A stretch of DNA of 64,000 nucleotides from Dietzia alimentaria 72 (GTDB taxonomy: Bacteria > Actinomycetota > Actinomycetes > Mycobacteriales > Mycobacteriaceae), in contig NZ_AGFF01000007.1 of the NCBI RefSeq assembly GCF_000226215.1, positions 186,001 to 250,000 of the forward strand. The letters run 5' to 3'. Below the pieces are notes generated by a model. That model was not told where the DNA came from, did not search any database, and was given only the letters and a program-made list of their open reading frames with translations. The translations under genes were made by a program, and so were the position numbers. Each line of letters opens with the position of its first letter. Positions within the stretch are counted from its first letter, which is position 1. Positions 41,887 to 57,520 of the stretch are shown in pieces.

Positions 41887-41898
41887 CGGAGTCGTCAG
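41883..41898. terminator. Short hairpin between convergent dehydrogenase and kstR
   Basis: CTGACG-GAGT-CGTCAG covers both stop codons of the two convergent genes. The stem is only 6 bp, so termination strength is doubtful. Confidence 0.4.
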
Positions 41899-42605
41899 CG
41901 GTCGAGCGGGGCCTCGGAATCGCCGTTCCCGCTCGCGATCGCGTTGTGCAGGCGTGCGCGCCGGGGCGAGTCGTCGGTGCCCAGGATGAGGTCGATGGTC
42001 ATACCGAGCCGGGCGCTGACGTCTGCGGCCGTGGAGCGCCGGGTCAACCAGGAGACGAGGTTGGACATCCACACGTCCGAGATGACACGTGCGATCGACA
42101 GTTGCACCTCGTCGGGCTCGCCCTGGGCCATCGCGCGGGCGATCATGCGGTCCATGTAGAAGGCCACTTCTTCGACCTCGGTGGCCACGGACGCGTCGGC
42201 GAACATGAACGCGCGGGTCATGGCCTCGGTGAGGTTGGGCTGGCTCTGCATGGACTTGGTGATCATGTCCACCACGACCTTCATGCGTTCCTGGGCGGTG
42301 TCGCCGGGCGGGGCGCTGCGCTCGGTGCGCTGGTCCAGCCGACGGAACTCGCGGGCCAGGGCGGAGGTCAGCAGATGCACCTTGGAAGGGAAGTAGCGGT
42401 AGAGGGTGCCCACGGCGACCTCGGCCTTCTCTGCAACGGCGCGCATCTGTACGGCCTCGTACCCGCCCTTGGCGGCGAGGGCGAGCGTGGCGTCGAGGAT
42501 CCGACGACGACGCTCCCGCTGTGACGACGTGGAAGGCTCGTCACCCCGGGTGGCGGGGCCCGACGGGGTGGGGTCGGAGCCGGTCTCGATCGAGCTCTTG
42601 GTCAT
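41895..42605 (-). CDS. kstR: Cholesterol-catabolism repressor KstR
   Basis: TetR-family repressor of 236 residues. The N-terminal RRRRILDATLALAAKGGYEAVQMRAVAEKAEVAVGTLYRYFPSKVHLL helix-turn-helix and the PNLTEAMTRAFMFAD and ISDVWMSNLVSWLTRR stretches match mycobacterial KstR (Rv3574), which releases DNA on binding a 3-oxo-steroid-CoA. The ATG at 42605 has an AGAAGG SD. It is divergent from fadE34, exactly as in M. tuberculosis, with two KstR boxes in the shared region, so it is autoregulated. Confidence 0.94.
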   Translation of the reverse strand: MTKSSIETGSDPTPSGPATRGDEPSTSSQRERRRRILDATLALAAKGGYEAVQMRAVAEKAEVAVGTLYRYFPSKVHLLTSALAREFRRLDQRTERSAPPGDTAQERMKVVVDMITKSMQSQPNLTEAMTRAFMFADASVATEVEEVAFYMDRMIARAMAQGEPDEVQLSIARVISDVWMSNLVSWLTRRSTAADVSARLGMTIDLILGTDDSPRRARLHNAIASGNGDSEAPLDR

Positions 42606-42688
42606 CCAGAACCTTCTGCGCTGTCGGATCAGTGTGATGGTCTGTGTGTGGGGCCCGGGTATACAGGTTTGGCCCCGCTCGTGCATTC

Positions 42689-42716
42689 TAGAACACGTTT
42701 CCTAGAACAGGTTCTA
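42689..42716. promoter_or_regulatory. Tandem KstR boxes in kstR-fadE34 divergent promoter
   Basis: Two adjoining sites fit the KstR pattern T-N2-AAC-N2-GTT-N2-A: TAGAACACGTTTCC (42689-42702, last base off) and TAGAACAGGTTCTA (42703-42716, perfect). A -10-like TATTAT (42715-42720) for fadE34 overlaps the second. TAGAAT on the minus strand (42690-42685) overlaps the first and suits kstR. Confidence 0.85.
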
Positions 42717-42792
42717 TTATGTCGAGGAGAGCGTGGACCGGAGTGTCCACGTAGGTCAGGTACACCACCCCAGTCGCGCCGAGGAGCACCCC

Positions 42793-44964
42793 GTGAGCAT
42801 CGCCACCACCCCGGATCAGACCGAGATCCAGAACTCGATCAAGGCCTGGGCTAAGTCCGCCAATCCAGTGGACACGGTACGCGCCCAGGAGAACGACCCC
42901 GACGCCTGGAAGGCCTTGTGGTCCCAGCTGGCCGAGCTCGGCCTCTTCGGGGTGGCGGTGGCGGAGGAGTTCGGTGGTGCCGGTGCCGAGATCGTGGATC
43001 TCGCCTGCATGCTCGAGGCCGCGACGGCTCGCATGGCACCCGGCCCGGTTCTGTCGACGGCCGTGACCGGCGTGCTGGTCTCCCGCGCCGGCGGTGCGGT
43101 GGCCCAGGCGCTCGGGGAGAAGATCGCCGAAGGCGGCCTGCCCGTCGGCATCTGCCTGGGCATCGGCGTGGCAACTCTGGACGGATCTGGCGCGGTCACC
43201 GGTGACCCGGGCCTCGCCTACGGCGGCACCACGGGCGGCGGTCTGCTGCTTCCCGTCGAGATCGACGGCGGCACTCGCTGGGCGCTGCTCGATGCCGGAA
43301 CCGAGGGTGTCAGCGTGACCGCGGCGACCCCGTTCGACATCTCCGCTTCTCTCGGTCACGTGAGCCTGGAGGGCGTGCAGGTCCCGGCAGACCGGATCCT
43401 CGAGGGGATCACCACGGACGACGTCCATCAGCTGTTCGTGACCCTCGCTGCCGCCGAAGCCGCCGGTGTGGCCGAGTACACGCTCACCACCTCGGTGGAC
43501 TATGCCAAGATCCGCGAACAGTTCGGCCGCACCATCGGCTCCTTCCAGTCCATCAAGCACCTCGCCGCCGACATGCTGTGCCGGACCGAGCAGGTCCGAG
43601 CGCTCGCCTGGGATGCAGCCGTCGCGGCCGAGGACATGGGCACCGAGGACTCCGAGTTGGCCGTGGCCGCGTCGGTGGCCGGTGCGCTCGCTTTTGACAA
43701 CGCCGTGCGTAACTCACAGGACTGCATCCAGATCCTCGGCGGCATCGGGTTCACGTTCGAGCACGATGCCCACTTCTACATGCGCCGGGCGAGCGCACTA
43801 CGCCAGGCGATCGGTGGTGCATCCCGCTGGCGCCGCTCGCTCGCCGACCTCACGCTGGCGGGCAGGCGACGCCACCTGGACATCGATCTCTCCGAGATCG
43901 AGGGCATCGACGCCAAGCGCGAGGAGATCAAGGCCCTGGTGGCCAAGGTCGCCGCCGTGGACGGCGACGAGCGCAAGCAGGCTCTGGCCGACACCGGGCT
44001 GTTCATGCCCCACCTGCCCGAGCCGTGGGGCCTGGGTGCGTCGCCGGCCGAGCAGCTCATGATCGACGAGGAACTCGAGGCCGCGGGAGTGGCCCGCCAC
44101 GACATCACCATCGGCGGCTGGGCCGTCCCGACGATCCTTCAGGCGGCTCCCGAGCACGCCGATCTCCTGGTCCGCGACACCATGGCCGGGAAGGTCAAGT
44201 GGTGCCAGCTGTTCTCGGAGCCCGGCGCCGGCTCAGACCTGGCCGCGCTGCGCGCCACCGCGGAGAAGGTCGACGGTGGTTGGAAGCTCAACGGTCAGAA
44301 GGTGTGGACCTCGCTGGCACGCGAGGCCGACTGGGCCATGTGCCTGGCGCGCACCGACAAGGACGCGCCCAAGCACAAGGGCATCACCTACTTCCTCGTG
44401 GACATGCGCTCCGAGGGCATCCGCACCTCGCCGCTGCGCGAGATCACAGGCGAGGCGCTGTTCAACGAGGTGTACCTCGAGGACCTCTTCGTGCCGGACG
44501 AATTCCAGGTGGGCACGGTCAACGAAGGGTGGAAGATCGCCCGCACCACGCTCGCCAACGAGCGCGTGGCCATGGGTGGCGGCTCGTCGCTCGGTGACGC
44601 GGCCGAGGAGATCATCGGCCTCATCGAGACCGCCGGGGTCGCCGGCGACGCACTGGTCTTGGACGAGCTCGGCAAGCACATCGCCGACGGCGTGGTGGGG
44701 AACCTGCTCGACCTGCGGACCGCCCTGCGCAGTCTCACCGGGTCCGGCCCGGGCGCGGAGTCCTCGGTCCGCAAGATCGTGGGCGTGCGCCACCGCCAGG
44801 ACGTTGCGGAGTTCGGGCTCGAACTCACCGGAACCCGCGGCGTCGAGTTCACCGAGCAGGGGCGCAAGTTCCTCATGGTGCGTTGCCTCTCGATCGCCGG
44901 TGGCACCGAGCAGGTGCTGCTCAACGTCGTGGGCGAGCGCATCCTCGGCCTGCCGCGCGACTAG
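42793..44964 (+). CDS. fadE34: FadE34-type two-domain steroid acyl-CoA dehydrogenase
   Basis: Acyl-CoA dehydrogenase of 723 residues made of two tandem ACAD modules, as in M. tuberculosis FadE34 (Rv3573c, ChsE3), which acts on the steroid side-chain CoA thioester. The N-half ends with IQILGGIGFTFEHDAHFYMRRA; the C-half begins near residue 375 and carries LFSEPGAGSDLAALRA, NGQKVWTSLA and the terminal VRCLSIAGGTEQVLLNVVGERILGLPR. The GTG at 42793 has a GAGGAG SD. It is the first gene of a probable five-gene side-chain operon under KstR control. Confidence 0.9.
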   Translation: MSIATTPDQTEIQNSIKAWAKSANPVDTVRAQENDPDAWKALWSQLAELGLFGVAVAEEFGGAGAEIVDLACMLEAATARMAPGPVLSTAVTGVLVSRAGGAVAQALGEKIAEGGLPVGICLGIGVATLDGSGAVTGDPGLAYGGTTGGGLLLPVEIDGGTRWALLDAGTEGVSVTAATPFDISASLGHVSLEGVQVPADRILEGITTDDVHQLFVTLAAAEAAGVAEYTLTTSVDYAKIREQFGRTIGSFQSIKHLAADMLCRTEQVRALAWDAAVAAEDMGTEDSELAVAASVAGALAFDNAVRNSQDCIQILGGIGFTFEHDAHFYMRRASALRQAIGGASRWRRSLADLTLAGRRRHLDIDLSEIEGIDAKREEIKALVAKVAAVDGDERKQALADTGLFMPHLPEPWGLGASPAEQLMIDEELEAAGVARHDITIGGWAVPTILQAAPEHADLLVRDTMAGKVKWCQLFSEPGAGSDLAALRATAEKVDGGWKLNGQKVWTSLAREADWAMCLARTDKDAPKHKGITYFLVDMRSEGIRTSPLREITGEALFNEVYLEDLFVPDEFQVGTVNEGWKIARTTLANERVAMGGGSSLGDAAEEIIGLIETAGVAGDALVLDELGKHIADGVVGNLLDLRTALRSLTGSGPGAESSVRKIVGVRHRQDVAEFGLELTGTRGVEFTEQGRKFLMVRCLSIAGGTEQVLLNVVGERILGLPRD

Positions 44965-45018: not shown

Positions 45019-47364
45019 GTGGACTTCACCCGTACCGAGACCCAGGCAGCCGTCGCCGAGGCCGTGGCAGGCGCGCTCTCCACGGCCGCCCCGGCCGAGG
45101 AACTGCTCACCGCACTGCCCAGCCGCAGCGTCGAGGACGCGGGCTACGACGAGCGCCTGTGGACCGCGTTCGCCGAGTCAGGACTGCTGTCCCTGGGGCT
45201 GCCCGAGGCACTCGGTGGCGATGACCTCAACGCCGCCGATATCGCCGTGGTGCTGGAGGAGGTCGGCCGAGCCGGCGTCGTGATCCCCGCCCTGGAGACG
45301 CTGGGTTTCGGTGTCCTGCCGATCATCGCTCTGGGCTCGCCGGCGCAACAGGAGCGACTGCTGTCCGGGATCGAGGACGGGCGCATCATCACCGCGGCAG
45401 TCGCCGAGCCGGGTAGCCCGCTCCCGCTCGAGCCCACGGTGCGTCTGGACGGAGGGAAGCTCACGGGAACGGTCACCGCCGTGCGGTACGCGGCCCAGGC
45501 GAGTTCTGTGCTGGTTCCGGCGACAACGTCCGAGGGGACCGCCCTCGTCGTCGTCGCCCCGGACGCTCCGGGAGTCACCCTGACCCCCACCCTCGGCTCG
45601 CTGGGGGTGCCCGAGTACGCGATGCGGCTCGAGGCCACCCCGGTCGATGACGACGAGGTACTGCGCGGCGCGGGATCAGAGCCCGCCCTCGAGGTGTTCC
45701 GACGTCTCGTCCTGTCGGCCTGCATCGCGCACGGCGACGGGCTGATCGCCGGCGCGTTGGACATGACGGCGGGTTACCTCAAGGACCGGGTGCAGTTCGG
45801 TAAGCCGCTCGGATCGTTCCAGGCGGTCCAGCAGGAACTCGCGGACGTCTACATCATCTCGCAGACGCTGCACGTGATCGGACAGTCGGTGGCGTGGCGC
45901 GTCTCCGAGGGACTGGCCGGACCGGGTGACCGATACGAGACCGACCCGGCGATCGGTGCCTACTGGTTGGCGACCGAGGGGCCACGGGCGGTGCAGATCC
46001 TGCATCACCTCCACGGTGGGGTCGGGGTGGACGTCACCTACCCGATGTTCAAGTTCTCCTCCGCGGTCAAGGATTTGGCCAGGTTCGTCGGCGGCGCGCA
46101 GCTGCACCTCGACGCACTCGGTAAGGCGGTCGCCGCGGACCCGGTCGAGCAGGTGGCGCCCGCCGCCACCGACGCCGGCGCGGCCTCGGAGGGCGCGTTC
46201 ATCGACCTGACGCCCGAGCAGCGGGCGCTCCAGGCGGAGCTGCGCGAATACTTCTCTACACTGATCTCGCCGCAGGAGGCGGCGGACATCGCCACCACCC
46301 GCCACGGTGACACCTATGCCGAGATCGTCAAGCGTATGGGCCGCGACGGCTGGCTGGGCGTCGGATGGCCCACCGAGTACGGCGGGAAGGGTTTCGGGCA
46401 CATCGAGCAGCTGATCTTCACCAATGAGGCCACCCGCGCCGACATCCCGTTGCCCTCGGTGACGCTGCAGACGGTGGGACCGACGCTGCAGAACTACGGG
46501 ACCCAGGCCCAGAAGGACAAGTTCCTGCCCGGGATCCTTTCCGGTGAGATCCACTTCGCGATCGGCTACTCCGAGCCCGATGCCGGCACCGACCTGGCCG
46601 CTCTGCGCACGACCGCGAAGCGCGACGAGGCCACCGGCGACTGGATCATCAACGGTCAGAAGATGTGGACGACCGGCGGGCACCACGCAGACTACGTCTG
46701 GCTGGCAGCCCGCACCGGCACCCCGGATTCCCGCCACCGCGGGCTGACGATCTTCATCGTGGACACCACCGACCCCGGCTTCTCGTTCACGCCGATCATC
46801 ACCTGCGACGGCGCCCACCACGTCAACGCCACCTACTACACCGACGTGCGCGTCCCGGCGGACATGGTGGTGGGCGAGGTCGACGGTGGCTGGAAGATGC
46901 TCACCACCCAGCTCAACCATGAGCGCGTCATGCTGGCGCCGTCCGGTCGTCCGGGCGGGTACTACGACGCGCTGGCGTCCTGGGCCCGGGGCACCGGCCC
47001 GGACGGGGTGCGCTATCTGGACCGGCCCGAGGTTCGCGACGGCCTGGCCGAGATCTTCTCGATCGTGCGGCTCAACGAACTCGTCAACTGGCAGGTCTCC
47101 TCGGCCGGCGACGACCCCTCGATGGCCGACTCCGCAGCCTCCAAGGTGTTCTCGACGGAGCAGATCCAGCACCTGGGCCGGATCGTCGAGGAACTCATCG
47201 GGAGGTTCGGCGACCCGACCCATCCCCGCATCGCGGAACTGCAGCGTTACTTCGACATGATGAACAAGCGCAACGTCGTGATCACCTTTGGTGGCGGCGT
47301 CAACGAGGTCATGCGCGAACTGGTCTGTATGGGAGGTCTCGGCATGCCCCGCACCTCCCGCTAG
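45019..47364 (+). CDS. FadE28-FadE29 (ChsE1-ChsE2) fusion acyl-CoA dehydrogenase
   Basis: A 781-residue protein whose first half matches FadE28 (MDFTRTE..., GALDMTAGYLKDRVQFGKPLGSFQ, HHLHGGVGVDVTYPM). From about residue 394 the second half matches FadE29 (FIDLTPEQRALQAELREYFSTLISP, VTLQTVGPTLQNYGTQAQK, VITFGGGVNEVMRE). In M. tuberculosis these are two genes (Rv3544c, Rv3543c) whose products form an alpha2beta2 complex that dehydrogenates the 3-carbon side-chain CoA intermediate. Here one gene with an Ala/Pro-rich linker (about 375-393) replaces both. It is followed by chsH2, chsH1 and ltp2 as in the igr operon. Confidence 0.9.
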   Translation: MDFTRTETQAAVAEAVAGALSTAAPAEELLTALPSRSVEDAGYDERLWTAFAESGLLSLGLPEALGGDDLNAADIAVVLEEVGRAGVVIPALETLGFGVLPIIALGSPAQQERLLSGIEDGRIITAAVAEPGSPLPLEPTVRLDGGKLTGTVTAVRYAAQASSVLVPATTSEGTALVVVAPDAPGVTLTPTLGSLGVPEYAMRLEATPVDDDEVLRGAGSEPALEVFRRLVLSACIAHGDGLIAGALDMTAGYLKDRVQFGKPLGSFQAVQQELADVYIISQTLHVIGQSVAWRVSEGLAGPGDRYETDPAIGAYWLATEGPRAVQILHHLHGGVGVDVTYPMFKFSSAVKDLARFVGGAQLHLDALGKAVAADPVEQVAPAATDAGAASEGAFIDLTPEQRALQAELREYFSTLISPQEAADIATTRHGDTYAEIVKRMGRDGWLGVGWPTEYGGKGFGHIEQLIFTNEATRADIPLPSVTLQTVGPTLQNYGTQAQKDKFLPGILSGEIHFAIGYSEPDAGTDLAALRTTAKRDEATGDWIINGQKMWTTGGHHADYVWLAARTGTPDSRHRGLTIFIVDTTDPGFSFTPIITCDGAHHVNATYYTDVRVPADMVVGEVDGGWKMLTTQLNHERVMLAPSGRPGGYYDALASWARGTGPDGVRYLDRPEVRDGLAEIFSIVRLNELVNWQVSSAGDDPSMADSAASKVFSTEQIQHLGRIVEELIGRFGDPTHPRIAELQRYFDMMNKRNVVITFGGGVNEVMRELVCMGGLGMPRTSR

Positions 47365-47396
47365 ACCCCCTCCCACAACCGAACGAGAAGGCACCC

Positions 47397-48473
47397 ATGA
47401 GTGACGAGCAGGCCGGCCGCATACTCGCCGCGGCCGAGGAGGTCCGCGCCTCCGGCGGTAGCGCCCCCCGTGCGGGCCGCGACCCCATCAACATGCCGAT
47501 GATCCGGAACTGGACCGAGGCGATCGGCGATGCCAACCCGATCTACGAGTCCGAGGACGCGGCCGTCGCGGCCGGTCACGGCGGACTCGTGGCGCCGCCC
47601 GCGATGGCGCAGGTGTGGACCATGCGCGGACTCGGCAAGACGCGCGAGTCCGACGACCCGCTCGGCCGGATGACGGACCTCCTCGACGCCGAGGGCTTCA
47701 CATCCGTCGTGGCCACCAACTGCGATTCGACCTACCACCGCTACACGAGGCCCGGCGAGGAGGTGACGATCTCCTCGGAACTGACCGACGTCGTGGGTCC
47801 CAAGAAAACCGGCCTGGGGGAAGGCTGGTTCTTCACTACTCGCAATTACTGGAGTGTGGGCAACGAGGTGGTGGCCGAGATGGATTTCCGGATTCTCAAG
47901 TTCCGTCCGCCGGCCAAGGAAGCACAGACACCCGCGTCCGCCGCCGATCAGATCGTGGCGAGCTCCTGCTCGGCCACCGACGACCTAGTGGTGGGCAAGG
48001 TCATGCGCCCATCCGTCTCTCAGGACACCCGCTTCTTTTGGGACGGCGTTGCCGCTCATGAACTCCGCATCCAGAAGCGCGAGGACGGCTCGCTGCAGCA
48101 CCCGCCCGTGCCAGCGCTGTGGAAGGACAAGACCGAGCAGACCGACTACGTCGTGGCCTCCGGTCGCGGCACGGTGTTCAGTTTCGTCACCCATCACGCC
48201 CCACGGGTCCCGGGCCGCACTCGGTTCCCATTCGTGATCGCTCTGGTGGAGCTGTCCGAGGGCGTACGGATGCTCGGCGAGCTGCGCGATGTCGACCCTG
48301 CCGAGGTCACGATCGGCATGGAGGTCGAGGTGGAGTTCCTCGACATGCCCGGAGACACCAGCGAGGACGCCGCGTTCGGCACCGAGCCGTGGACGCTGTA
48401 CGCGTGGCGGCCCGCCGGGGCCCCGCCCATCGACCGTCAAATGCCCGAAGTCGCGGAAGGTGGCGCCAAGTGA
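47397..48473 (+). CDS. chsH2: Steroid enoyl-CoA hydratase large subunit ChsH2 (MaoC-DUF35)
   Basis: Protein of 358 residues: an N-terminal MaoC-like hot-dog domain (to about 180; INMPMIRNWTEAIGDANPIY) and a C-terminal DUF35 domain (about 195-340; PVSQDTRFFWDG-type start and the FPFVIALVELSEG segment). It pairs with ChsH1 to hydrate the C17-propenoyl-CoA steroid. The DUF35 part docks onto Ltp2. It follows the fused dehydrogenase by 32 bp and overlaps chsH1 (GTGA). Confidence 0.92.
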   Translation: MSDEQAGRILAAAEEVRASGGSAPRAGRDPINMPMIRNWTEAIGDANPIYESEDAAVAAGHGGLVAPPAMAQVWTMRGLGKTRESDDPLGRMTDLLDAEGFTSVVATNCDSTYHRYTRPGEEVTISSELTDVVGPKKTGLGEGWFFTTRNYWSVGNEVVAEMDFRILKFRPPAKEAQTPASAADQIVASSCSATDDLVVGKVMRPSVSQDTRFFWDGVAAHELRIQKREDGSLQHPPVPALWKDKTEQTDYVVASGRGTVFSFVTHHAPRVPGRTRFPFVIALVELSEGVRMLGELRDVDPAEVTIGMEVEVEFLDMPGDTSEDAAFGTEPWTLYAWRPAGAPPIDRQMPEVAEGGAK

Positions 48474-48919
48474 GCGAGAACAGTGCTGTGACCGACGCGG
48501 TCTGCCCGGCCGAACCGCCGACCGTTGCGGTGGGGGACGCTCTCCCCGAACTGCAGGTCGAAGGCACCCCCACGTTCATCGTGGCGTCAGCCCTGGCGAC
48601 GCGTGACTTCCAGGATGTTCACCACGATCGTGACCTGGCCCATCAGAAGGGCTCCAAGGACATCTTCGTCAACATCCTCACCGATACCGGCCTGGTGCAG
48701 CGGTACGTCACCGACTGGGCCGGACAGAAGGCGCGGATCACCTCCATCAAGCTCCGCCTCGGCGTGCCCTGGTACGCCTACGACACCCTCATCCTGACCG
48801 GCGAGGTCACGGAGATCGCGGCAGACGGCCTAGTCACTTTGAAGATCGTCGGCAATGACTCCCTGGGCGCACACGTCACCTCGACCGCGACCCTTTACAT
48901 GAATGGAGACCCGCAGTGA
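48470..48919 (+). CDS. chsH1: Steroid enoyl-CoA hydratase small subunit ChsH1 (MaoC)
   Basis: Single hot-dog MaoC domain, 149 residues, matching ChsH1 (Rv3541c). The segment TRDFQDVHHDRDLAHQKGSKDIFVNILTDTGL provides the hydratase-type Asp/His surface. The GTG at 48470 overlaps the chsH2 stop. The downstream ltp2 GTG overlaps its own stop, giving a tight translational chain that fits the ChsH1-ChsH2-Ltp2 complex. Confidence 0.91.
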   Translation: MSENSAVTDAVCPAEPPTVAVGDALPELQVEGTPTFIVASALATRDFQDVHHDRDLAHQKGSKDIFVNILTDTGLVQRYVTDWAGQKARITSIKLRLGVPWYAYDTLILTGEVTEIAADGLVTLKIVGNDSLGAHVTSTATLYMNGDPQ

Positions 48920-50088
48920 GCACCCTTGCCGACAAGGCGGCGATCGTCGGTATCGGCGCCACCGACTTCTCCAAAAACTCCGGCCGCTCTGAGCTCCGAT
49001 TGGCAGCGGAGGCCGTGCAGGCCGCAGTGGCTGACGCCGGGCTCAAGCCCTCGGACGTCGACGGCCTGGTGTCGTTCACCATGGACACCAACACCGAGAT
49101 TGCCGTGGCCCGCGCCGCCGGCATCGGCCACCTCAACTTCTTCTCGCGAATCCATTACGGAGGCGGCGCGGCGTGCGCCACCGTGCAGCAGGCAGCCATG
49201 GCCGTTGCCACGGGCGTCGCGGAAGTGGTCGTCTGTTACCGCGCGTTCAACGAGCGCTCCGGAATGCGGTTCGGGCAGGTCAACTCGGCACTGGTGCAGC
49301 AGGTCAACTCCTCCGGCACCGACAACGCCTTCTCCTACCCGCACGGTCTGTCCACGCCCGCCGGGTTCGTTGCCATGGTGGCCCAGCGCTACATGCACGA
49401 GTACGGGGCTACCAGCGAAGACTTCGGCCGCGTTGCCGTGGTGGACCGCAAGCACGCCGCCGCCAATCCGGCCGCGTTCTTCTACGGCAAGCCCATCACG
49501 CTCGCCGACCACCAGAACTCCCGCTACATTGCGGAGCCGCTGCACCTGCTGGACTGCTGCCAGGAGTCGGACGGCGGCCAGGCGATAGTGGTGACTACTC
49601 CCGAGCGGGCCAGGGATCTGCCGCACAAGCCGGTCTCGATCGCCGCCGCGGCCTCGGGCTCGGGCCCGGATCAATACATCATGACCTCGTACTACCGGCC
49701 GGAGCTCGCGGGACTGCCCGAGATGGGCATCGTCGGCGACCAACTGTGGTCCCAGTCGGGCCTGCGTCCTGAAGATATGGACATGGCGGTCCTGTACGAC
49801 CACTTCACGCCCTACGTCCTCATGCAGCTCGAAGAACTGGGCTTCTGCGGCCGCGGGGAGGCCAAGGACTTCGTCCGTGAGCCCGGTGCTCTTGAAGTGG
49901 GCGGTCGATTGCCACTGAACACGCACGGCGGCCAGCTGGGCGAGGCGTACATCCACGGCATGAACGGCATCGCCGAGGGGGTCCGGCAGCTGCGCGGTGA
50001 GTCGGTGAACCAGGTCGACGGCGCCGAGAGGCTCGTCGTGACCGCCGGTACGGGCGTGCCGACCTCGGGGCTGGTGCTCACCGTCTGA
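48916..50088 (+). CDS. ltp2: Steroid side-chain retro-aldolase Ltp2
   Basis: Thiolase-fold protein of 390 residues (SCP-x/LTP type). With ChsH1-ChsH2 it cleaves the 17-hydroxy-steroid-C3-CoA to a 17-ketosteroid and propionyl-CoA. Thiolase-like segments include KAAIVGIGATDFSKNSGRSELRLAAEAV, GGGAACATVQQAAMAVATG and the C-terminal NTHGGQLGEAYIHGMNGIAEGVRQLRGE. The GTG start overlaps chsH1. A strong hairpin follows the stop. cyp125, the igr operon's usual first gene in M. tuberculosis, is not here. Confidence 0.92.
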   Translation: MSTLADKAAIVGIGATDFSKNSGRSELRLAAEAVQAAVADAGLKPSDVDGLVSFTMDTNTEIAVARAAGIGHLNFFSRIHYGGGAACATVQQAAMAVATGVAEVVVCYRAFNERSGMRFGQVNSALVQQVNSSGTDNAFSYPHGLSTPAGFVAMVAQRYMHEYGATSEDFGRVAVVDRKHAAANPAAFFYGKPITLADHQNSRYIAEPLHLLDCCQESDGGQAIVVTTPERARDLPHKPVSIAAAASGSGPDQYIMTSYYRPELAGLPEMGIVGDQLWSQSGLRPEDMDMAVLYDHFTPYVLMQLEELGFCGRGEAKDFVREPGALEVGGRLPLNTHGGQLGEAYIHGMNGIAEGVRQLRGESVNQVDGAERLVVTAGTGVPTSGLVLTV

Positions 50089-55801: not shown

Positions 55802-57505
55802 TCAGACTCCCGTCTTCTCGGTGGGGGTGGAGGCCAGCATGTTCTCGACGGCCAGGTAGCCGAACACGAGCGCGGGGCCGATGGTGGCCCCGGGGCCCGC
55901 GTAGGTGTGGCCCATGACCGGCGACGACGCGTTACCGGCGGCGTAGAGCCCCTCGATCACGGAGCCGTCCTCTCGCAGGACACGACCGTGTACGTCGGTG
56001 TTTGCGCCACCCTTGGTACCCAGGTCGCCCGGAACCATCTTGGCGGCGTAGTACGGCGCCTTGCGGACCGGGCCGAGGCTCGGGTTGGGCTTGTTGGTCG
56101 GGTCGCCGTAGTAGTGGTCGTACCCGGACTCGCCACGGCTGAAGTCCTCGTCAACGCCCCGTGCTGCAAAGTCGTTGAATCGCGCGGTTGTCTTCTCCAG
56201 CGCTTCCGCCGGCACGTCGATCAGCGCAGCCAGTTCGGCGAGGGTGTCTGCCTTGTGGAAGTTCTCCGACTCGAGCCACTTCTTGGGCAGCGGCTGCTTG
56301 GCCTGGAGTCCGGCGAAGAGGTACCGGTTCTTGTACTCCTGGTCAAACACGATCCAGGCCGGGACGTTCTCTCCGGGGCCCTCGCCCTGACCGAACTCGC
56401 CGCCGTACATTCTGTGGCCGGCCTCGACGTAGGGCAGGGACTCGTTCATGAACCGCTCGCCACGTCCATTGACCATGAAGGAACATGGCAGTGACCGCTC
56501 GGCCAACGCGAACCACGGTCCGCGCGGCATGACGATGGTCGGGCCCCACCAGGAGTCCTCCATGAAGGACAGGGCGGCGCCGGTCTTCTCCATGTACTCG
56601 ATGCCCTCACCGGTGTTGGCGGCGGCGCCGACCGACCACGAGGTGGGGATGGGCTGACGCTGGTACTTGTCGCGCATCTCCTGGTTGTGCTCGAAACCAC
56701 CCGAGCCCATGACCACACCGCGACGGGCGCGGAGGATGACCTCTTCGCCGTTCCGGGTGACGGTAATGCCGACGACCCGCTCGTCGTTACCAGAGCCCTC
56801 CGTGACCAGCCCGGTCATCGGCGTCTCGAGCCACACCGGCACGCCGACGTCGAGAAGACCCTTGCGCATGGCGGCGATGAGCGCACGGCCCATGCCCACC
56901 GAGTTCTGGCGGCGGGCCTTGGCGAGGAACATCCGCGCGGCGACCCGGATCGAGCGCCGGATGCCCTTGGTGTGCGGCCGCTGGAGGAGGTTCAGCCAGC
57001 GGTAGTCGGACTGCATGATGACCATGTTGACCGGTGCCTTGGCGTAACCCGGCTCCAGCTTGTCCGCTTCCGAACCGAGCTGGTTCAGGTCGAAGGGCTT
57101 GGGCTCGACCGAGCGGCCACCGAGACGACCGCCGGGGGCCTCCGGGTAGTAGTCGGAGTAGTCCTTGACCCACTCGAGCTGCAGCGGACTGTTGGCGAGG
57201 ATGAAGTCGAGAACCTCGGGCCCGCGGTCGATGTAGGTGTCGATCCGTTCGGGTGCCACGACGTCCCCGATGATCGACCGGAGGTAGGTCCGTGCGGCCT
57301 CCGGGGTGTCCAAGACGCCATCGCGTTGGAGCACCGAGTTGCCCGGGATCCACACGCCGCCACCGGAGCGGGCTGTAGACCCTCCATAGTGGGGTGCCTT
57401 CTCCACGAGGACCACGCTGAGGCCCTTCTTTGCTGCCGCGAGGGCGGCCGTCATGCCTGCTCCACCGCTGCCCACGACGACGACGTCGAATTCCTGGTCT
57501 GCCAT
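55802..57505 (-). CDS. kstD: 3-ketosteroid delta1-dehydrogenase KstD
   Basis: FAD enzyme of 567 residues introducing the C1-C2 double bond in the steroid A-ring. The N-terminal FAD motif is VVVVGSGGAGMTAALAAAKKGLSVVLVEK, followed by GGSTARSGGGVWIPGN. The C-terminal FAD/active-site region has LYAAGNASSPVMGHTYAGPGATIGPALVFGYLA. The ATG at 57505 reads MADQEFDVVVVGSG. TATAAC on the minus strand (57520-57515) ends nine bases before this ATG, consistent with a leaderless or nearly leaderless transcript. A KstR box covers that -10. Confidence 0.95.
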   Translation of the reverse strand: MADQEFDVVVVGSGGAGMTAALAAAKKGLSVVLVEKAPHYGGSTARSGGGVWIPGNSVLQRDGVLDTPEAARTYLRSIIGDVVAPERIDTYIDRGPEVLDFILANSPLQLEWVKDYSDYYPEAPGGRLGGRSVEPKPFDLNQLGSEADKLEPGYAKAPVNMVIMQSDYRWLNLLQRPHTKGIRRSIRVAARMFLAKARRQNSVGMGRALIAAMRKGLLDVGVPVWLETPMTGLVTEGSGNDERVVGITVTRNGEEVILRARRGVVMGSGGFEHNQEMRDKYQRQPIPTSWSVGAAANTGEGIEYMEKTGAALSFMEDSWWGPTIVMPRGPWFALAERSLPCSFMVNGRGERFMNESLPYVEAGHRMYGGEFGQGEGPGENVPAWIVFDQEYKNRYLFAGLQAKQPLPKKWLESENFHKADTLAELAALIDVPAEALEKTTARFNDFAARGVDEDFSRGESGYDHYYGDPTNKPNPSLGPVRKAPYYAAKMVPGDLGTKGGANTDVHGRVLREDGSVIEGLYAAGNASSPVMGHTYAGPGATIGPALVFGYLAVENMLASTPTEKTGV

Positions 57506-57506
57506 G

Positions 57507-57520
57507 TAGAACACGTTATA
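57507..57520. promoter_or_regulatory. KstR box between kstD and hsaE
   Basis: TAGAACACGTTATA, a full match to T-N2-AAC-N2-GTT-N2-A, directly before the kstD start. It overlaps the minus-strand -10 TATAAC and lies 46 bp upstream of the hsaE ATG. Confidence 0.85.

Follow-up and report, generated by a model that had tools for sequence, protein, structure and literature searches.

The alpha2beta2 ChsE1-ChsE2 (FadE28-FadE29) steroid acyl-CoA dehydrogenase of the igr operon of Mycobacterium tuberculosis is described as a two-subunit enzyme in sections of two publications (PMC6678751, PMC8399759), and enzymes of this type need both subunits for activity according to the relevant section of the second, a review. 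A two-module architecture has already been published for CasC, for which sections of the same review place the catalytic Glu in the C-terminal domain, state that the N-terminal domain is required for FAD, and report activity on C5 but not on shorter side chains (PMC8399759). FadE34 (ChsE3) and CasC share the order of a dead N-module followed by a catalytic C-module, while ChsE4-ChsE5 (FadE26-FadE27; PDB 4x28) and Tcur3483-Tcur3481 (6wy8) consist of separate chains. A comparative study names both Dietzia and Tsukamurella as cholesterol degraders, and its main text lacks any word that starts with "fused", "fusion", "FadE" or "ChsE" (PMC4810484); our searches of the open-access literature on FadE28/FadE29, steroid acyl-CoA dehydrogenases, the igr operon and Dietzia returned no report of a FadE28-FadE29 fusion.

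Here we describe a gene of Dietzia alimentaria 72, located in a 64-kb stretch of genomic DNA (the window, whose coordinates are used throughout), in which FadE28- and FadE29-type modules share a single open frame. The gene very probably encodes a single-polypeptide ChsE1-ChsE2 (FadE28-FadE29), a last-round cholesterol side-chain dehydrogenase with one active site formed from complementary modules, a reading in which the fusion, its conservation, the key residues and the operon are taken from sequence and the activity, substrate and assembly state of the enzyme are presumed.

Results

A single open frame joins two acyl-CoA dehydrogenase modules

The frame runs from a GTG start to a TAG stop with zero internal stops, and Pfam assigned Acyl-CoA_dh_N and Acyl-CoA_dh_1 to two stretches each of the encoded protein and the middle domain to one (Table 1). 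In phmmer searches of the PDB, the N-half (residues 1-375) best matched 4x28_D (E=2.2e-42) and the C-half (residues 395-781) best matched 4x28_A (E=1.5e-101), chains that represent the two unlike subunits of the M. tuberculosis ChsE4-ChsE5 complex; Tcur3483 and Tcur3481 (6wy8) followed as the next relatives of the halves, in agreement with the fold matches. Together with the module tree described below, the single frame and the two-subunit PDB matches bear out the claim of the earlier note that one 781-residue chain joins a FadE28-type and a FadE29-type module. On the opposite strand, a 572-codon open frame at window 45676-47394 (-) most likely arises as a shadow of the GC-rich coding sequence.

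Table 1 Features of the fused gene and its operon, in window coordinates.
Feature	Position	Strand	Basis or remark
kstR, TetR-type repressor of cholesterol catabolism	41895..42686	-	NCBIfam NF033703 transcr_KstR, 310.6 bits (cut-off 280)
KstR-operator-like palindrome TAGAACAGGTTCTA, between kstR and fadE34	42703..42716	+	
fadE34 (ChsE3-type), two-module acyl-CoA dehydrogenase	42733..44964	+	ORF, Pfam, module tree
Fused fadE28-fadE29 (ChsE1-ChsE2)	45019..47364	+	781 aa; ORF, Pfam, PDB, relatives, AlphaFold2
N-terminal FadE28/ChsE1-type (beta) module, residues 1-375	45019..46143	+	
Arg257 codon (KDRVQFG), N-module	45787..45789	+	
Linker core, residues 376-390, Ala/Asp-rich, predicted disordered	46144..46188	+	pLDDT under 50
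C-terminal FadE29/ChsE2-type (alpha, catalytic) module, residues 393-781	46195..47361	+	Matches to 4x28_A and 4x28_B
Glu635 codon (LNHERV), C-module, putative catalytic base	46921..46923	+	
Gly758 codon (TFGGGVNEV), C-module	47290..47292	+	Aligned with a Gly of Tcur3483
chsH2 (dehydratase region and OB-fold/DUF35)	47397..48473	+	Pfam PF01796 OB_ChsH2_C, PF13452
chsH1	48470..48919	+	Position, operon conservation
ltp2, thiolase-like aldolase	48916..50088	+	NCBIfam PRK07855, 706.6 bits; Pfam

An AlphaFold2 single-chain model of the fused protein had a mean pLDDT of 88.3 and a pTM of 0.91, and a fold search with this model aligned the C-module to 4x28_B with a TMt of 0.91. The longest very-low-confidence stretch of the model covered residues 376-390, the others being limited to residues 335-337 and 756-759 (3 and 4 residues), which agrees with the linker that the earlier note had located near residues 375-393; in the model, the ~15-20 residues between the modules are predicted to be flexible. 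Methylsuccinyl-CoA dehydrogenase, an ordinary acyl-CoA dehydrogenase with an N-terminal extension, is a longer single-chain member of the superfamily as well, and Foldseek aligned 582 and 581 model columns with its structures 6es9 and 8ciw, at 18-19% identity to the fused protein.

The fused gene lies in an igr-type operon

The order kstR, fadE34, fused gene, chsH2, chsH1, ltp2 is that of an igr-type operon, and the presence of chsH2, chsH1 and ltp2 fits the ChsE1-ChsE2 family. The genes are tightly spaced, with gaps of 54 bases between fadE34 and the fused gene and of 32 bases between the fused gene and chsH2, and overlaps of 4 bases each at chsH2/chsH1 and chsH1/ltp2. The true fadE34 start is probably ~60 bases further in than the ORF start, and at the limits applied neither Pfam nor NCBIfam matched chsH1. 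The kstR gene is divergent from the fadE34-led operon, and the pattern TNNAACNNGTTNNA, which we take to be the KstR operator consensus, occurs at 2 places in the 64-kb window, compared with 0.07 expected from shuffles. The second KstR-operator-like site, TAGAACACGTTATA, is at window 57507-57520, where the reverse-strand ORF 55802-57514 has its 5' end. Among 35 loci inspected for synteny, all 19 separate-gene relatives had the order E28-E29-H2-H1-ltp2 (ltp2 being cut by the end of the fetched stretch in 4 of them), and fadE34 lay upstream of E28-E29 in 15 of these 19.

Module phylogeny relates the fusion to FadE34

In the module tree, FadE28 and FadE29 each formed one clade (100/100) with the window's modules inside, where the FadE28/FadE29 assignment combines operon synteny with the tree and the clade names come from operon position and not from M. 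tuberculosis sequences. Read with these labels, the second half of the protein matches FadE29, as the earlier note had supposed. The N-half of FadE34 grouped with FadE28/FadE27 (bootstrap/SH-aLRT 100/98) and its C-half with FadE29/FadE26 (100/99), and because its halves group with different subunit types, FadE34 is an alpha/beta pair in one chain; a tandem duplication as its origin was rejected on the same ground. The fused gene does adjoin a two-module fadE34, so that the operon contains two consecutive two-module dehydrogenases. From this neighbourhood the earlier note had suggested that FadE34 arose by the same kind of fusion, of which the alpha/beta pair in one chain is upheld by the tree, while a fusion giving FadE34 and a splitting of the other enzymes fit that tree equally.

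The fused gene shares with FadE34/CasC the presence of two acyl-CoA dehydrogenase modules per chain with the catalytic Glu in the C-module only, but it lies outside FadE34, whose modules E34A and E34B form separate clades (100/100 each) in a tree built without CasC. As ChsE1-ChsE2 is defined by two chains and this gene has one open frame, we file it as a fused variant of ChsE1-ChsE2.

Cofactor and catalytic residues are divided between the modules

Arg257 of the N-module occupies the position that we take to be the FAD-pyrophosphate Arg of acyl-CoA dehydrogenases, and it was kept in 138/138 FadE28-type rows, as was Glu635 of the C-module in 138/138 FadE29-type rows (these counts hold three loci twice, giving 135 distinct loci). 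In a mixed alignment, the catalytic Glu was present in 13/13 FadE29 rows versus 0/13 FadE28 rows, and the FAD Arg in 13/13 FadE28 rows versus 2/13 FadE29 rows, the latter two possibly reflecting misalignment; the window fits the expected pattern for both residues. Gly758, whose counterpart in Tcur3483 is the residue changed to Ala in the G363A variant (6wy9), was Gly in all 138 FadE29-type and all 5 FadE26 rows, and its TFGGG motif falls in the 4-residue low-confidence loop of the model (residues 756-759).

The join is conserved in Dietzia

The earlier note had proposed looking for the fusion across Dietzia, and the frame proved to be open through the junction in 20 of the 23 genus genomes, the window's own included. 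In two of the remaining genomes (G001 and G009) the FadE29 half is present and cut at a contig end at the junction, and in the third (G018, 85% complete) the genus search matched only a FadE26-like paralogue and no fused copy. Named members of the genus set apparently include D. cinnamea, D. maris, D. natronolimnaea, D. cercidiphylli and D. aurantiaca. In all 20 loci the spacer between the module matches measured 42-111 nt, always a multiple of 3, and in 19 of them the start codon of the relatives' FadE29 (MFIDLT) has been replaced by Ala or Thr, the exception being the most divergent genus locus (G022), which alone keeps the ATG.

The fusion recurs in other Actinobacteria

The fusion is not unique to Dietzia and was also observed in Tsukamurella, in family f35 and in three further genus groups, the 135 distinct loci with an inspected junction giving 51 genomes with a fused pair and 84 with a separate pair, 3 of these genomes having both. 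The A+B set left out 30 of 146 loci, of which 8 were repeat fetches and 22, being paralogues or contig ends (e.g. G001, G009), had no FadE28-type match in front; L006 (a second view of the window's gene) and L181 are among the 30. Genus group g29, identified as Tsukamurella because its locus L170 is 100% identical to T. tyrosinosolvens WP_068741645.1, was fused in all 13 genomes examined, of 15 with a match, and WP_068741645.1 is annotated as one CDS, "acyl-CoA dehydrogenase". In g5 both states occur within one genus (5 of 8 fused, 3 separate), and in g8 a single locus of 19 is fused. Three g9 genomes carry a second, fused copy (L168, L169 and L181) and also keep the usual separate igr pair; these copies adjoin a FadE26/27-like pair, have no chsH2, chsH1 or ltp2 within the 5 kb fetched per side, and may serve another steroid.

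In family f35, a class search gave 9/9 fused at a cut-off of 1e-150, a fraction that is biased upward because this cut-off favours fused forms. An order-level search of 248 genomes passed three f12 genomes, two of which have a stop between the modules while the third matches the FadE29 half only. From a contig search of named genomes, the best 80 of 160 loci were kept, among which fused forms came only from Dietzia; the other rows were mostly FadE26-FadE27-type pairs, in which the catalytic gene comes first, unlike in the fused gene, alongside some lone matches and a small number of distant pairs (~30% identity) in the window's gene order. As its non-Dietzia rows are mostly of FadE26-FadE27 type, this search of the best 80 of 160 is silent on FadE28-FadE29 in other named genera.

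Two plasmid records also gave matches. The fused gene of Tsukamurella tyrosinosolvens NCTC13231 (L249 3881-6160) lies on an 18.7-kb "plasmid 6" record (NZ_LR134448.1), whose cluster could, as a guess, be a piece of the chromosomal steroid locus. A one-piece two-module acyl-CoA dehydrogenase match with ~32% identity was found at L250 3001-5103 on pBB1 of Cupriavidus necator N-1, a betaproteobacterial conjugative megaplasmid.

Fused and separate states changed several times

A careful tree of 76 rows (27 fused), in which L242 sits on a long branch beside the outgroup, required six changes between the fused and separate states, and six were also obtained from the 5% to the 95% bootstrap points; an initial quick tree, with 120 rows and f35 left out, gave five. 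A single clade of all fused rows was rejected (AU p 1.16e-09), as was one clade of Dietzia and Tsukamurella (p 1.63e-05), and one clade of Tsukamurella and the g9 second copies was marginally rejected (p 0.0335), all of these p-values leaning low because the groups were named after the tree had been seen. Given that the last rejection is only marginal, five rather than six changes are possible.

The arrangement of the separate genes suggests how a join could occur. Among 27 junctions inspected, 17 were separate, and in 8 of these the end of FadE28 lies within the opening codons of FadE29; such overlapping genes could be fused by no more than a slight shift of frame or the loss of a stop. In a first set of 75 separate loci, the two genes shared a frame in 10; of the out-of-frame pairs, 55 had an identical offset and 10 had the other one. 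Ten separate pairs (L047, L048, L049, L050, L051, L052, L053, L055, L137 and L144) are in frame with a stop and a spacer of 9 to 81 nt and are, by their sequences, near the fused state. In two fused frames, L056 (G251) and L031 (G022), the FadE29 ATG survives directly ahead of FIDLT; these have the appearance of more recent fusions, or might still allow FadE29 to start internally. Our inference is that, on several occasions in Actinobacteria, adjacent genes that often overlapped were joined through a change of frame and stop.

Discussion

The Dietzia gene resembles ChsE1-ChsE2 of the M. tuberculosis igr operon in operon order, in the Glu/Arg split and in the TFGGG Gly, with module identity given by the tree, and differs from it in being one 781-aa chain with a linker. 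That a stop and a start were lost through an error of assembly or sequencing has practically no probability left: the window's genome is a draft in 39 contigs, but the frame is open in 19 further genus genomes, six of which carry the gene on single contigs over 2.5 Mb, a fused gene is entered as one CDS in the named Tsukamurella record, and since relatives share the open frame a sequencing error is very unlikely, so that we reject this explanation. It is also highly improbable that the gene encodes a FadE34/CasC-type enzyme for C5 side chains or a FadE26-FadE27 pair. Its two-module order is common to FadE34/CasC and its best solved-structure matches are ChsE4-ChsE5 chains, but the tree places its modules with FadE28 and FadE29 and keeps both clades distinct from FadE34 and FadE26/27, the igr-operon synteny speaks for FadE28-FadE29, and the Gly758 position, which is Gly as in FadE29/FadE26, is Ala in 9/11 and Gly in only 2/11 FadE34 C-modules. 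Both rejected identities are moreover present elsewhere in the genome, as a separate fadE34 adjoining the fused gene and as a FadE26/27-like pair at G000:C33:322734-325185.

A single-chain FadE28-FadE29 raises the question of whether one polypeptide is what the cell makes. Some separate FadE29 made by internal initiation is possible, because at least one in-frame GTG falls within the 33 codons preceding the C-module in 17 of the 20 genus loci, that of the window among them, and the old ATG persists within the fused frame of G022 (as in that of G251); disordered linkers are also generally protease-prone, and this linker is predicted to be disordered. That two polypeptides are still what is made, with FadE29 coming mostly from the internal GTG or reinitiation or the chain being cut in the linker, is nevertheless quite improbable, given that the ancestral ATG is gone in 19/20 genus loci, that two (L016 and L018) have no in-frame ATG, GTG or TTG in those 33 codons, and that all 20 spacers are in frame, which a dispensable readthrough would not need. 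The reverse history, an ancestral fused state from which separate pairs split later, draws on change counts that are blind to gain versus loss and on FadE34, which is outermost on both sides of the module tree and one unbroken match in the five fetched loci that contain the gene nearly complete (L059, L183, L184, L185 and L226). We regard this history as unlikely: in g5 and g8 the fused clades sit within groups of separate pairs, the outgroup (FadE26/FadE27) consists of separate genes that follow each other in the opposite order, the linkers of different fused clades are unlike in both length and sequence, and each split would, on general grounds, need a new stop and a new ribosome site. Repeated gain is thus favoured by the nesting and by the unlike linkers.

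For the single-chain enzyme, we propose that the N-module is catalytically dead and would supply the FAD-holding Arg257, whereas the C-module would supply the catalytic Glu635 together with the greater part of the FAD and substrate site. The modules of one chain, or of two chains, may pack like the alpha-beta pair of ChsE4-ChsE5 and Tcur3483-Tcur3481, and the packed pair would then make one active site, as in FadE34/CasC, by analogy with which the fused enzyme likely works. If the modules pack in this way, two fused chains would equal an alpha2beta2 tetramer, and we would expect a dimer of fused chains and a fixed stoichiometry, both of which the earlier note had read from the fusion.

Two-module steroid acyl-CoA dehydrogenases (FadE34, CasC) and the two-subunit ChsE1-ChsE2 are known, and the recurrence of the fusion is the main new point, which suggests that the Dietzia fusion is a recurrent variant of a known enzyme and not a new enzyme kind. 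We lean towards viewing the ChsE1-ChsE2 pair as a fusion hotspot, with about six independent joins in Actinobacteria beyond FadE34/CasC, reached via frame changes between overlapping neighbours and pointing to selection that favours an equal dose or disfavours orphan subunits.

Such fusions may explain gene lists in which fadE28 is apparently missing. For the igr operon of Nocardioides simplex, one study assigns chsE2 (fadE29) to a single gene, KR76_12325, and its main text never mentions "fadE28" (PMC7807495); KR76_12325 may be a fusion. Because both subunits are needed, ChsE1-ChsE2-type enzymes are awkward to make and study, and the natural single-chain form in non-tuberculous Actinobacteria offers a one-gene version for structural work and enzymology, at a step that is close to androstenedione and of interest to steroid manufacture. 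The repeated fusions are also a natural experiment on what drives obligate heteromers to merge into a single chain.
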